Source: Desulfoscipio gibsoniae DSM 7213 (lineage in GTDB: Bacteria > Bacillota > Desulfotomaculia > Desulfotomaculales > Desulfallaceae). Taken from it: DNA of 64,000 bases. Below, in pieces: positions 3,954 to 17,571 of the stretch. Under the pieces are notes generated by a model that worked only from the letters and a program-made list of their open reading frames with translations, was not told the origin of the DNA and did no database searches. Positions within the stretch are counted from its first letter, which is position 1. Every line of letters starts with the position of its first letter. Made by a program: the position numbers and the translations under genes. The stretch is from NCBI RefSeq assembly GCF_000233715.2, contig NC_021184.1, positions 3,372,001-3,436,000 of the forward strand, in the 5' to 3' direction.

Positions 3954-5009
3954 CTAAATAGCGTCCAGTATATATTGCCAGTCACAATACTGGTTTATGT
4001 TATCTAAAGTTACCGCAATCCCTTCCTTATCAGTGGGTTTTAGATTTCTGGATACTTGACCGATCATTTCGATCACTGTATATGTATCCTGGTAAGTTAA
4101 TATCACGGGTACTCCTTTTTCACCCGCCCGGGCCAGCACCCCCACGTCAGGATATAGACCACCGGTTAATATAAGTGCCGAGGTATGGGTTTCCAGTGCG
4201 GCCAGGGCCAAATCCGAACGATCGCCACCCATAACCACAGCTTTATTGGCTGACCGCCTGAGATAGGTCAGTGCACTGTCCATGGTCATAGCACCCACTA
4301 CTACATCCTCTACCAGCCGGTCCATGTTTTCCTGACCAACCAGCACTTCACCGCCCAGTCTTTCCCGAAACTCATTGACGGTGGGAGAAGCAATCTCCGG
4401 GCGACTGGGTATAACGCCCAAGGCTTTAAAGCCTGATTTCTCTATTGCGGGCCTGAAAACACCCTCCGTCTTGGCCAACAGTTGACGGGGCACATTACTA
4501 AAGATCGTACCCAGCAAATTTATCCCCTGACCGGAAATATAACGGTTATAAAATATAGCCAGATCAAGGCTGTAATCATCGTCTACCCGTTGCACAGTAA
4601 TAGCATGGGCATTTAATTCACCAGCCAGGGTGACAGAATCCAGTCCCACCGATGACAGAGCATAAGGATGAACGGCCCCTTCTATTAACACAATGTCACA
4701 ATCCCTGGCAATTTCTGTATAAGCTGATTTAACATCCTGCATACTATATGCGTTTTCCTCGATCCTGGTTAAGTAAGAAGGTCCAGCCTTAACCGGACTG
4801 ATTTCCCCTAGGGATGCTTCTATACCCAGCACGTGTTTCATTAAAACGGCATCGCCGCCGGGTACTTTCCCGGTAGCAGTTTTTCTTCCATTGTCTATTG
4901 GTTTAAAGTAACCTACCCGGTTGCCCAGTTCCTTGAATTTTTGTGCCAATCCCAGAATAACCGCCGTTTTGCCACTGTCCGGATTACCCATGACAAACAG
5001 ATTTTTCAT
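3954..5009 (-). CDS. P-loop / DRTGG-domain protein (phosphotransacetylase-associated type)
   Basis: This 351-residue protein has an N-terminal dethiobiotin-synthetase-like P-loop domain (MGNPDSGKTA, residues 7-16; VGYFKPID) and a middle-to-C-terminal DRTGG domain (NEFRERLGGEVLVG onward, then VVMGGDRSDLALAAL). This arrangement matches stand-alone relatives of the N-terminal regulatory part of long phosphotransacetylases. The ATG at 5009 follows a GAGGTG Shine-Dalgarno; the earlier in-frame GTG lies inside that site. It begins 10 nt after the stop of the ADP-forming acyl-CoA synthetase, so the two are in one operon. A role in acyl-CoA/acyl-phosphate metabolism or its sensing is inferred. Confidence 0.75.
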   Translation of the reverse strand: MKNLFVMGNPDSGKTAVILGLAQKFKELGNRVGYFKPIDNGRKTATGKVPGGDAVLMKHVLGIEASLGEISPVKAGPSYLTRIEENAYSMQDVKSAYTEIARDCDIVLIEGAVHPYALSSVGLDSVTLAGELNAHAITVQRVDDDYSLDLAIFYNRYISGQGINLLGTIFSNVPRQLLAKTEGVFRPAIEKSGFKALGVIPSRPEIASPTVNEFRERLGGEVLVGQENMDRLVEDVVVGAMTMDSALTYLRRSANKAVVMGGDRSDLALAALETHTSALILTGGLYPDVGVLARAGEKGVPVILTYQDTYTVIEMIGQVSRNLKPTDKEGIAVTLDNINQYCDWQYILDAI

Positions 5010-12872: not shown

Positions 12873-15362
12873 TTATTCAACTACAATATTTACTAACTTA
12901 CCGGGCACCGGTATTACTTTAACTACCTTTTTGTCACCGACCAGTTCCAGTACTTTTTCCTGTTGCATAACCAGTTCCCGCATAGCGTCCGGCTTAATGT
13001 CAGCGGGCACCAGCATGCGATCCCGGACTTTGCCGTTAATTTGCACCACAATGGTAATTTCATCTTCAATAATCGCTTCGGGATCATATTGGGGCCAGGG
13101 CTGGGCATGAATGATGCCCTCATGTCCTGTTAAATTCCATAATTCCTCGGTAATATGTGGGGCAAAGGGAGCCAACAACAGCAACAAAGCCTCAACCGCC
13201 TCGCGCAATACCCCGGCGTCACGGTCGCACTCGGGTAATTCCCGGTACTGGTACATGGCGTTTACCAGTTCCATAATGGCACTGACCGCTGTATTAAAAT
13301 TAAACCGGTTGCCTACATCCTCGGTTACTTTTTTGATGGCCAGGTGAATCATCCGGCGCATATCCTTGTTAACCCCTACCGGGTTAGCCCCAGTCTGAGC
13401 CGCAACTACACCTGTAGCCAGCATATCACCCAGCGGTGCCACCAGACGCCACACCCGGTTCAGGAATCGGTAACAGCCCTCAACCCCCTGGTCGCTCCAT
13501 TCCAGGTCCCGCTCAGGGGGTGAAGCAAATAAAATAAACAGCCGGGCAGTGTCGGCACCATAAGTGGCCACGATATCCTCCGGGCTTACCACATTACCTT
13601 TGGACTTGCTCATTTTGGCTCCGTCTTTGAGCACCATGCCCTGGGTGAGCAGGTTGGTAAAGGGCTCATCATTATCCACCAATTTCAAATCATAAAGCAC
13701 CTTGGTAAAAAACCGGCTGTACAAAAGATGTAAAATAGCATGTTCAACACCGCCAATGTACTGATCTACCGGCAGCCAGCGCCTTACCTTATCATAATCC
13801 CAGGCATTGGCATCATCCCTGGGGCTGGTGTAACGGTAATAATACCAAGATGAGCACATGAATGTATCCATGGTGTCGGTTTCCCGGCGGGCCGGGCCAC
13901 CGCATGTGGGACATGTGGTATTGACAAAGTCCGCATGTTCCTCCAGCGGGGAACGACCGGTGGGCTTAAACGCCACATCCATGGGCAGCATGACAGGCAA
14001 ATCCTTATCAGGTACCGGCACCACACCGCACTTATCGCAATAAATAATCGGAATAGGCGCACCCCAGTAACGCTGGCGGGAAATTAGCCAGTCCCGCAGC
14101 CGGTAGTTGATCCTGCCATCGCCCAGCTTCTGTTCCTGCAAATATTTTATAACGGCGGTAATGCCCTCCCGGTTCGGGGTGCCGTTAAAGGGCCCGGAAT
14201 TAACCATCAATCCTTCACCATCGTAAGCCTCAGTCATGACAGCGGGATCAAGTGTTACTCCTTCAGGTTGTATAACCACCCGAATGGGCAGGTTATACTT
14301 GCGGGCAAATTCAAAGTCCCGCTGGTCGTGGGCCGGCACACCCATAACAGCACCGGTACCGTATTCCAACAACACGTAATTGGCCACCAATATGGGCACT
14401 TTTTCACCGTTCACCGGGTTAATGCAATGAGCGCCGGTCAGTAAACCAATTTTCTCCGCCTCAGTGGAAGTACGGGCCAGTTCGCTTAAATTGCGCACCT
14501 TATGCACAAAATCCCTGATCTCCCCGGCCTGTGGCTTACCCTCAATTAATTTTTCCACCAGGGGATGCTCGGGCGCCAGCACCATATAGGTAACACCATA
14601 AACGGTATCCGGGCGGGTGGTAAATACCGTGATGGTCTCATCTATACCATCAATTTGGAAAGTAATCTCAGCCCCTTCACTGCGACCAATCCAGTTTTCC
14701 TGCATAATCTTAACTTTATCCGGCCAGCCGCCCAGTTTATCAAGGTCGGCCAGCAGCCGGTCAGCATATTGTGTAATTTTAAAGAACCACTGCTCCAGCT
14801 CCCTTTTCTCGACAACGCTGGCACAGCGCTCACAAGAGCCTTCTTTGACCTGCTCATTGGCTAGCACGGTGGCGCAGGAGGGACACCAGTTCACAGCAGA
14901 TTTTTTCTTATAGGCCAGTCCATGGTGGTAAAGCTGTAAAAACAGCCACTGGGTCCATTTATAATATCCGGGGTGGCACGTGGCTACTTCCCGGCTCCAG
15001 TCATAGCTGATACCCAATTGTTTCAACTGCTCACGCATAGAATCAATATTATCCGTGGTCCACTGGGCCGGGTGCAAAGCTCCGTGCTTTATTGCCGCGT
15101 TTTCCGCCGGCAGGCCAAAGGCGTCCCAACCCATGGGGTGCAGTACATTAAACCCCTGCATCGTTTTAAACCTGGCCACCACATCGCCAATTGAATAATT
15201 ACGCACATGCCCCATGTGCAGTTTCCCCGAGGGATAGGGAAACATTTCCAAACAGTAATATTTAGGCCGGTCGCTGAAATCGGGCACGGCGTAAATATCT
15301 TGCTCCGACCATTTTTGCTGCCATTTAGCTTCTATTACCTTAAATTCATAGCGGTCCTTCAT
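12873..15362 (-). CDS. leuS: Leucyl-tRNA synthetase
   Basis: This 829-residue class I synthetase charges tRNA-Leu. The HIGH motif appears as [14 protein letters not shown] (about residues 44-57) and the KMSKS motif as AKMSKSKGN. The CP1 editing domain with the threonine-rich [13 protein letters not shown] motif is intact, and an anticodon-binding domain follows. The length is normal for bacterial LeuRS. GGGAGG lies just before the ATG. Upstream on the same strand are an acyl-CoA synthetase gene and a leucine-type T-box, so leuS may be read from that leader. A separate promoter also sits in the 130-bp gap. Confidence 0.96.
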
Positions 15363-15492: not shown

Positions 15493-17157
15493 TTAAACCA
15501 GGTTAGCCACGTTTTCATAGCGGGATAATTCCTTGATGCCCATTTCCCTCAACTTGAACTTTTGCACCTTGCCGTTGGCGGTGGTTGGGTAGCCGTCAAC
15601 AAAATGAATATATGACGGTATCTTATACCGGGCAATTTTACCGGAGCAGTAATTTTTAATATCCTCGACGCTGACCCGGGAGCCTGCTTTTAACTGGATA
15701 AAGGCCATAACTTCTTCCCCGTACTTTTCACTGGGCACACCCACCACCTGTACATCTTTCACCTGTGGATAAGTATATAAAAATTCCTCAATTTCCCGGG
15801 GATAAATATTTTCGCCACCTCTGATAATCATGTCTTTAATCCGGCCGGTTATTCTAAGGTAACCGTTTTCATCCATAATACCCAGGTCGCCGGTATGCAG
15901 CCACCCCTCTTGATCAATGGCGGCAGCCGTAGCCTCGGGCATTTTATAATAACCTTTCATGACGTTATATCCACGGGCGCAAATTTCACCCTGGACGCCG
16001 GCAGGCACCTCTTCGCCGTTTTCCGGATCAACGATCTTGACCTCCACCCCATCGAGCGCTTTACCCACTGTGGACACTCTCAATTCCAGCGGGTCGTCGG
16101 TGCGGGTCATGGTAATACCGGGTGCCGCTTCGGTTTGACCATAAGTAATTACTATTTCCCGCATACACATTTTTTCCACCACGGCCTTCATCACTTCAAT
16201 GGGGCAGGGCGATCCGGCCATAATACCGGTGCGCAGGGTAGATGTATTAAAGGGCTGTTTTTCCAACACTTCTAACTCGGTGATAAACATAGTGGGCACC
16301 CCGTGCAGCGCAGTACACCGTTCCTTCTCCACCGCTTCCAGGACTTTCACCGGACTGAACGATTCTATCATTACCATGGTGGTAGCATGGGAGACGCAGG
16401 CCAAGGTGCCCAATACACAACCAAAACAATGGAACATAGGTACCGGAATGCATAGGCGGTCATCAGGGCCAAAACCCATGCATTTACCAATACTATAACC
16501 ATTCCCTACCAGGTTAGTATGGGTCAGCATAACTCCCTTGGGAAAACCGGTGGTTCCCGAAGTATATTGCATATTAATAACATCGTCAGGTTCTAATGAT
16601 GATTGCCTGGCCACCAGTTCATCATCAGTAATCTCATCGCCCATGGCCAGCACATCCTGCCAGTCAAAAATACCGGGATGACTTTCATCACCAATAAAAA
16701 CCAGGTTCTTTAACATCGGCAGTCTTTTACAATTCAGCCGACCGTGCATACTGCCGCGCAGTTCCGGGCACAACTCATATACCATATCCACATAATTGGA
16801 ATCCTTTATACCACTGGAGAAAATTAGAGTAGTGGCATCGGACTGCCGGAGCAAATATTCCAACTCAAAAACTTTGTAATTGGTATTCACCGACGTTAAT
16901 ACAGCTCCCATTTTGCCGCAGGCAAATTGAAGGAGTACCCATTCAGGTATGTTGGGTGCCAAAAGGGCAATATGTTCGCCTCTTTTAATACCCAGAGCCA
17001 TCAATGATTTGGCGATACGATTACATTGCTGCTGAAATTGCCGGTATGTGTACCTTATGTTCCTGTCCGGGTACACTACCGCCTCATTATAAGGAAACCT
17101 GCCCGCCGATAAATCCAGCAATTCACCAACGGTAATTTGATCGAAAAGTTTTTTCAT
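15493..17157 (-). CDS. AMP-forming acyl-CoA synthetase
   Basis: This 554-residue member of the AMP-binding superfamily activates a carboxylic acid to the acyl-CoA via acyl-AMP. It has the P-loop-like MQYTSGTTGFPKGVMLTH motif, the TYGQTEAAPG motif, HTGDLGIMDENGYLRITGR with the hinge Asp, and the C-terminal catalytic Lys in TANGKVQKFKLREM. Substrate is not fixed by sequence; medium-chain or branched acids are possible. The ATG at 17157 has GAGGTGA upstream. It is the first gene after the T-box leader with its embedded tRNA-Ala, and leuS follows. Confidence 0.9.
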   Translation of the reverse strand: MKKLFDQITVGELLDLSAGRFPYNEAVVYPDRNIRYTYRQFQQQCNRIAKSLMALGIKRGEHIALLAPNIPEWVLLQFACGKMGAVLTSVNTNYKVFELEYLLRQSDATTLIFSSGIKDSNYVDMVYELCPELRGSMHGRLNCKRLPMLKNLVFIGDESHPGIFDWQDVLAMGDEITDDELVARQSSLEPDDVINMQYTSGTTGFPKGVMLTHTNLVGNGYSIGKCMGFGPDDRLCIPVPMFHCFGCVLGTLACVSHATTMVMIESFSPVKVLEAVEKERCTALHGVPTMFITELEVLEKQPFNTSTLRTGIMAGSPCPIEVMKAVVEKMCMREIVITYGQTEAAPGITMTRTDDPLELRVSTVGKALDGVEVKIVDPENGEEVPAGVQGEICARGYNVMKGYYKMPEATAAAIDQEGWLHTGDLGIMDENGYLRITGRIKDMIIRGGENIYPREIEEFLYTYPQVKDVQVVGVPSEKYGEEVMAFIQLKAGSRVSVEDIKNYCSGKIARYKIPSYIHFVDGYPTTANGKVQKFKLREMGIKELSRYENVANLV

Positions 17158-17214: not shown

Positions 17215-17536
17215 AAAACCTCTCATCCCAGTAAGGGACGAGAGGTTTGTCTCGCGGTACCACCCTAATTGATAAAGTCCATGGTGGAGATGAGGGGAAT
17301 CGAACCCCTGACCTCCTGAATGCCATTCAGGCGCTCTCCCATCTGAGCTACATCCCCATGACTTTAACCGCTCGGTGTGTTAACGGCACATGCCGTCCCG
17401 GTATACTTTTTTCCACCGGGCAACTCCGGGGCGAGTTCATTCACCTTACCCACCGCCTCGCACCGACCGGCAGCTCTCTTCAGGGTATGACAGCGACATT
17501 ACTACTCCCCTTCATAGTCATTAACTTATTAAACTG
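17215..17536 (-). ncRNA. T-box riboswitch leader, leucine specifier, interrupted by tRNA-Ala
   Basis: Transcribed on the minus strand. The T-box core AGGGTGGTACCGCG lies at 17266-17253, with the UGGU bulge that pairs with a tRNA acceptor end. A terminator follows: arms 17248-17235 and 17229-17216, then a T-run. Stem I elements are present: AGTAGTAA, an AGAGAG GA-motif, the distal GGTCGGTGCGAGG loop, and the specifier region TGAACTCGCCCC. Reading the codon after GAA gives CTC (leucine), in agreement with leuS downstream. Between the Stem II-like region and the antiterminator, where Stem III normally stands, a complete tRNA-Ala sits on a 7-bp helix (TAAAGTC/GACTTTA). Confidence 0.88.
17282..17357 (-). 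tRNA. tRNA-Ala (anticodon GGC)
   Basis: This is a 76-nt canonical tRNA. The acceptor arm GGGGATG/CATCTCC contains the G3-U70 wobble that identifies alanine tRNAs. The D stem is GCTC/GAGC, the anticodon stem is CCTGA/TCAGG with loop ATGGCAT (anticodon GGC), the variable loop has 5 nt, and the T arm is AGGGG-TTCGATT-CCCCT. The 3' ACCA is encoded. All stems pair fully apart from the wobble. It lies inside the leucine T-box leader, upstream of the leader's terminator, so it would be transcribed whether or not the T-box terminates. Confidence 0.97.
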
Positions 17537-17542
17537 AGCCTA

Positions 17543-17571
17543 ATTATAAAATAATTAATATTTAAAGTCAA
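17543..17571 (-). promoter_or_regulatory. Sigma-A promoter of the T-box / tRNA-Ala unit
   Basis: TTGACT (17571-17566) and a perfect TATAAT (17548-17543) are separated by 17 nt on the minus strand. Transcription would start near 17536, just before Stem I of the T-box. It lies directly after the rsfS stop codon. Confidence 0.75.

Follow-up and report, generated by a model that had tools for sequence, protein, structure and literature searches.

Can a riboswitch that senses one tRNA also carry the gene for another? This question is raised by the leader upstream of the leucyl-tRNA synthetase gene in the 64-kb window (the whole stretch of DNA analysed, from Desulfoscipio gibsoniae DSM 7213), for which a preliminary description made from the sequence alone had claimed that a complete tRNA-Ala gene sits within a leucine T-box. 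To verify this claim, the window was examined with ARAGORN and with cmscan against Rfam. ARAGORN detected a single tRNA in the window, tRNA-Ala(GGC), whereas cmscan identified a full-length T-box (model positions 1–219) with an 82-nt unaligned insert at the Stem III hairpin, within which the tRNA model (RF00005) also scored. Both modules score as intact family members in one stretch, and Stem I is found upstream of the tRNA. The tRNA has all four stems, G3-U70, and an encoded CCA. Thus, the observation is confirmed. The features of the locus are summarized below.

Features of the nested T-box–tRNA locus and of the genes that follow it (positions are those of the window)
Feature	Position	Strand	Evidence
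Promoter TTGACT-17 nt-TATAAT	17543..17571	-	Consensus scan, 11 of 12 matches
T-box leader (RF00230), Stem I to antiterminator/terminator	17231..17524	-	cmscan 133.7 bits (cut-off 93), E 1.6e-29
Specifier codon CUC (Leu); one tRNA-Leu(GAG) among the tRNA loci examined	17433..17435	-	Position in the Rfam alignment; tRNA set
GAGCG, the RRRNG half of the discriminator purine motif just 5' of Stem III	17369..17373	-	Sequence; motif from PMC7778990 and PMC7583486
5' strand of Stem III (host helix)	17360..17366	-	Sequence; anchored-helix test across loci; pair types
Complete tRNA-Ala(GGC), CCA encoded; the only Ala(GGC) gene found in the genome	17282..17357	-	ARAGORN; RF00005 67.5 bits; tRNA set; pattern count
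3' strand of Stem III	17273..17279	-	Sequence; anchored-helix test across loci; pair types
AA closing the RRRNG-Stem III-AA motif	17269..17270	-	Sequence
T-box core GGGUGGUACCGCG (UGGU complementary to ACCA of tRNA-Leu)	17253..17265	-	cmscan
Intrinsic terminator, 14 pairs	17216..17248	-	Consensus scan
Fatty acid-CoA ligase family gene between the leader and leuS	15493..17157	-	NF009233 779 bits, below its cut-off of 832
leuS, leucyl-tRNA synthetase	12873..15362	-	TIGR00396 1136 bits (cut-off 548)

According to the literature, the T-box discriminator is built from 5'-RRRxG-Stem III-AA-3' plus the antiterminator, with variable Stem III stem and loop (PMC7583486, PMC7778990). In the window, both flanking motifs are intact, and the tRNA forms the apical end of the helix between them; the sensor is therefore complete, and only the tip of Stem III is replaced. 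The host helix is 7 bp long, as given in the preliminary description, and one further G-C pair (17368/17271) lies outside a U-U mismatch. In comparison with the leuS class of transcriptional T-box riboswitches (RF00230), with which the leader shares Stem I with a specifier, Stem III flanked by RRRNG/AA, the T-box core, the antiterminator/terminator and leuS downstream, the difference is that Stem III carries a full tRNA gene for another amino acid. No mention of a tRNA gene inside a T-box was found in the literature examined (PMC7583486, in which the term "tRNA gene" does not occur, PMC7778990, PMC10482949, PMC4919913, PMC2494555, PMC1262725), although the search did not cover all comparative T-box surveys or any supplements, and this absence is not proof of novelty.

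The window lies in a single-contig genome of 4,855,529 bases, which contains 17 T-box matches, 12 of them over the cut-off. Only the one described here contains a tRNA. ARAGORN analysis of the tRNA loci revealed one Ala(GGC) and one Leu(GAG), and a pattern search agreed on a single Ala(GGC).

In order to determine whether the arrangement recurs, genomes of the order to which the window belongs were searched. A search with the leader itself matched all 60 genomes, the own one included, but many of these matches are to the tRNA or the T-box core alone. Of the 30 loci returned (own included), 27 have tRNA-Ala(GGC) ending 11–25 nt before a T-box core (variant cores were read by eye), while three have a free tRNA. 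A pattern blind to tRNA identity (T-arm, then T-box core) matched 44 of 113 genomes; by manual reading, one of these matches is not a tRNA, leaving 43, and two genomes hit the reversed control pattern. Four more genomes have the nesting with a variant core, giving a total of 47 of 113. In 45 of these 47 genomes, the nested copy is, by manual reading, the only tRNA-like Ala(GGC) match, although the pattern requires an encoded CCA and misses some genes; the two remaining genomes have a second match. By manual reading, and for genes with an encoded CCA, the nested copy is also the only match in 12 of 14 genomes of named loci.

The same pattern matched 95 of 398 genomes of the phylum, of which, by manual reading, 85 end in a tRNA-Ala acceptor and 10 do not, with three genomes hitting the reversed control. 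In 301 genomes of the phylum of Dictyobacter kobayashii, 53 matched (37 tRNA-type and 16 not, by manual reading), and 11 genomes hit the reversed control. Of these, 114 have an ARAGORN tRNA ending 8–33 nt before the core, while six do not, one of which has a tRNA cut by the locus edge. Notably, all of the 114 tRNAs are tRNA-Ala (113 GGC and one CGC). As the scan pattern named no anticodon, a general habit of tRNAs entering T-boxes was rejected. leuS follows on the same strand in 107 of the 114 loci; in three of the other seven, an ORF like the acyl-CoA ligase of the window comes first and the locus ends, and in four the locus ends at once. Based on NCBI names, the 114 loci fall in Bacillota (59), Chloroflexota (32), Thermomicrobiota (8), Armatimonadota (3), Atribacterota (3), Coprothermobacterota (2), Actinomycetota (2), Caldisericota (1), Pseudomonadota (1), and Thermodesulfobacteriota (1), with two unnamed. 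Many are metagenome bins, hence single-member phyla are unsure. The recurrence excludes chance adjacency and, together with the single-contig genome and the full-scoring tRNA and T-box, refutes misassembly or a decayed tRNA. The spread across phyla at one gene suggests an old gene arrangement that has gone unnoticed as far as could be searched; tools that call tRNAs and riboswitches separately do not flag the nesting.

Rfam analysis of further loci showed that 4 of 18 pass at gathering scores. By E-value, a T-box that encloses the tRNA was found in 8 of 8 (E-values, 1.6e-18 to 5.9e-7) and 7 of 8 loci (2e-22 to 4.5e-8), which with the four gives 19 of 20 further loci in total, each with tRNA-Ala and leuS downstream; three loci cut close to the leader were not retested below the gathering score. 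The exception is locus L179. The insert sits at the Stem III hairpin in several T-box alignments with a nested tRNA. The strict specifier motif [AG]AACTC[AG] occurs upstream in 127 of 140 distinct nested loci. Among the 13 others, three have under 50 nt upstream, two have less than the 330 searched, five show CTC by eye, one is unclear, and L179 has no Stem I. In the Caldisericota locus and a Coprothermobacterota locus, Stem I is much shortened, being cut down to the specifier loop with a few-nt cap.

A first search for the host helix discriminated poorly (true mean 6.9, swapped 5.4) and was replaced by a test in which Stem III was anchored between RRRNG and AA. In this test, 97 of 140 loci have at least 4 contiguous pairs and 67 have at least 6. 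When 5' and 3' flanks were swapped between loci (6952 pairs), the shares were 27% and 12%, and with shuffled 5' flanks (1400 pairs) 3.4% and 0.2%. Among the 97 loci, pair types vary with compensation (position 2: GC 49, AT 37, GT 5, TG 4, TA 2). The 43 loci that fail the strict test include the window itself, because of its U-U mismatch. Thus, Stem III is maintained around the tRNA in most loci, and the T-box does not look like a ruin.

Taken together, these results make it likely that one leader transcript carries two functional RNAs, although co-transcription, order of events, processing and leucine response are inferred from the anatomy and not from transcript data. In this view, RNA polymerase starts at the promoter and makes Stem I/II, the 5' strand of Stem III, tRNA-Ala(GGC), the 3' strand of Stem III, the antiterminator and the terminator. 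The T-box samples tRNA-Leu(GAG): if it is uncharged, its ACCA end pairs with UGGU and the acyl-CoA ligase gene and leuS are read through, and if it is charged, transcription stops near 17216. The acyl-CoA ligase gene, a similar ORF of which follows the leader in some relatives, should therefore share leucine control. As proposed in the preliminary description, tRNA-Ala precedes the terminator and should be transcribed in both states, and its excision by RNase P and 3' processing would cut the spent sensor from the antiterminator; the base of Stem III may hold the halves together for a while. The consensus scan found no separate internal tRNA promoter on that strand, although in the absence of transcript data such a promoter is not excluded. 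On the other hand, secondary-structure energies alone favour another fold of the Stem III-tRNA unit over the cloverleaf by 6.6 kcal/mol (-39.0 against -32.4), while the tRNA alone folds nearly as a cloverleaf; tertiary contacts and modification are not in that model. In addition, U at -1, which RNase P probably favours, is only mildly commoner at the nested loci (105 of 140) than before the window genome's own tRNAs (31 of 55). Being the only copy found makes it likely that the tRNA is expressed, matured and charged. Such a leader would tie tRNA supply, RNase P processing and synthetase control to one short RNA, and offers a natural test of how fast a T-box must decide before its leader is cut, of how much of Stem III the discriminator needs, and of what some insertions in T-box domains are.

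The preliminary description also considered cis interference conceivable, as the ACCA end of the tRNA is complementary to UGGU about 20 nt downstream. Beyond this complementarity, neither interference nor alanine cross-talk through the charging state of tRNA-Ala has support here, and both are very unlikely: the specifier is CUC and not an Ala codon, UGGU would be expected of any T-box reading a discriminator-A tRNA, and the CCA end is not free before processing, whereas after processing the tRNA is no longer in cis.

Relatives within the order revealed alternative arrangements. In 17 of the 40 further loci fetched, tRNA-Ala(GGC) stands upstream of leuS (in two of them about 0.9 and 1.2 kb upstream) with no T-box core in the next 110 nt. 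By eye, many of these have a promoter directly before the tRNA and a hairpin after it, some of the T-box terminator type. In four loci from two families, the T-box upstream of leuS has an ordinary small Stem III and no tRNA (two of them examined with Rfam); in three of these, leuS starts about 1.9 kb downstream. In two genomes of the order, the tRNA lies elsewhere. In a fifth genome with a leuS T-box lacking the tRNA (locus L289), Stem III holds a 90-nt insert that is no tRNA by Rfam. It is possibly a decayed one, but its likeness to tRNA-Ala is not significant (81 of 1000 shuffles score as well against one tRNA form, and 853 of 1000 against the other). On LeuRS trees of 106 and 112 rows, these states lie among nested ones, with at least 3 and 6 changes of state, and L289 groups with a nested Pelotomaculum locus. 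This suits repeated loss of either module; however, the rows were chosen by the trait, and all rows without T-box or without tRNA were taken from the order of the window, so that the trees cannot date gains or losses.

These alternatives bear on whether processing is itself part of the control, with cleavage of the nested tRNA acting as a timer that ends the window for antitermination, frees the bound tRNA-Leu, or gives the leuS mRNA a defined structured 5' end. Excision necessarily separates Stem I/II and RRRNG from AA and the antiterminator, and without Stem III the antiterminator hardly binds tRNA (PMC7583486). Nevertheless, as each module occurs without the other, neither needs the other, and coupling by processing is possible but not needed by the data; it is regarded as unlikely. 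Equally doubtful, though not excluded, is a bolder suggestion that the nested tRNA is a working part of an ancient tRNA-linked control module, in which tRNA maturation and leuS antitermination compete on one RNA, so that RNase P activity or tRNA folding sets the timing of the T-box decision. In its most speculative form, Stem III of the leu T-box would descend from a tRNA-Ala(GGC)-leuS leader in which a cis tRNA sat next to the antiterminator before tRNAs were sensed in trans.

The arrangement is inferred to persist mainly because the tRNA is usually the only copy and shares promoter and terminator with the T-box. A special case of this view, tentatively possible, is that of a pure passenger: a single-copy tRNA once landed in a permissive loop and cannot leave, with no mutual influence at all. 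The usual single copy and the occurrence of both modules alone fit this suggestion, and so does the divergence of the tRNA between relatives with similar flanks. Within one family, loci L048 and L059 have 57 of 76 tRNA positions identical, with flanks 153 of 200 and 50 of 60, whereas locus L056, whose flanks are no closer to L048 overall (147 of 200, 52 of 60), has a tRNA 73 of 76 identical. This looks like exchange of the tRNA in place. On the other hand, the nested tRNA is kept in spite of a second copy in two genomes of the order and two Dictyobacter genomes, and the same tRNA at the same gene across phyla is a lot for a passenger.

Notably, in 15 loci, all among the 32 Chloroflexota, a tRNA-Ala(CGC) lies just upstream of the T-box that contains tRNA-Ala(GGC), so that Stem I and II sit between two tRNA-Ala genes. 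The single locus L179 has a tRNA-Ala(CGC) (at about 4386–4459 of the locus, minus strand) before the core, no T-box match and, by eye, a promoter-like sequence right before the tRNA, which fits recombination between two neighbouring tRNA-Ala genes, although this is an inference.
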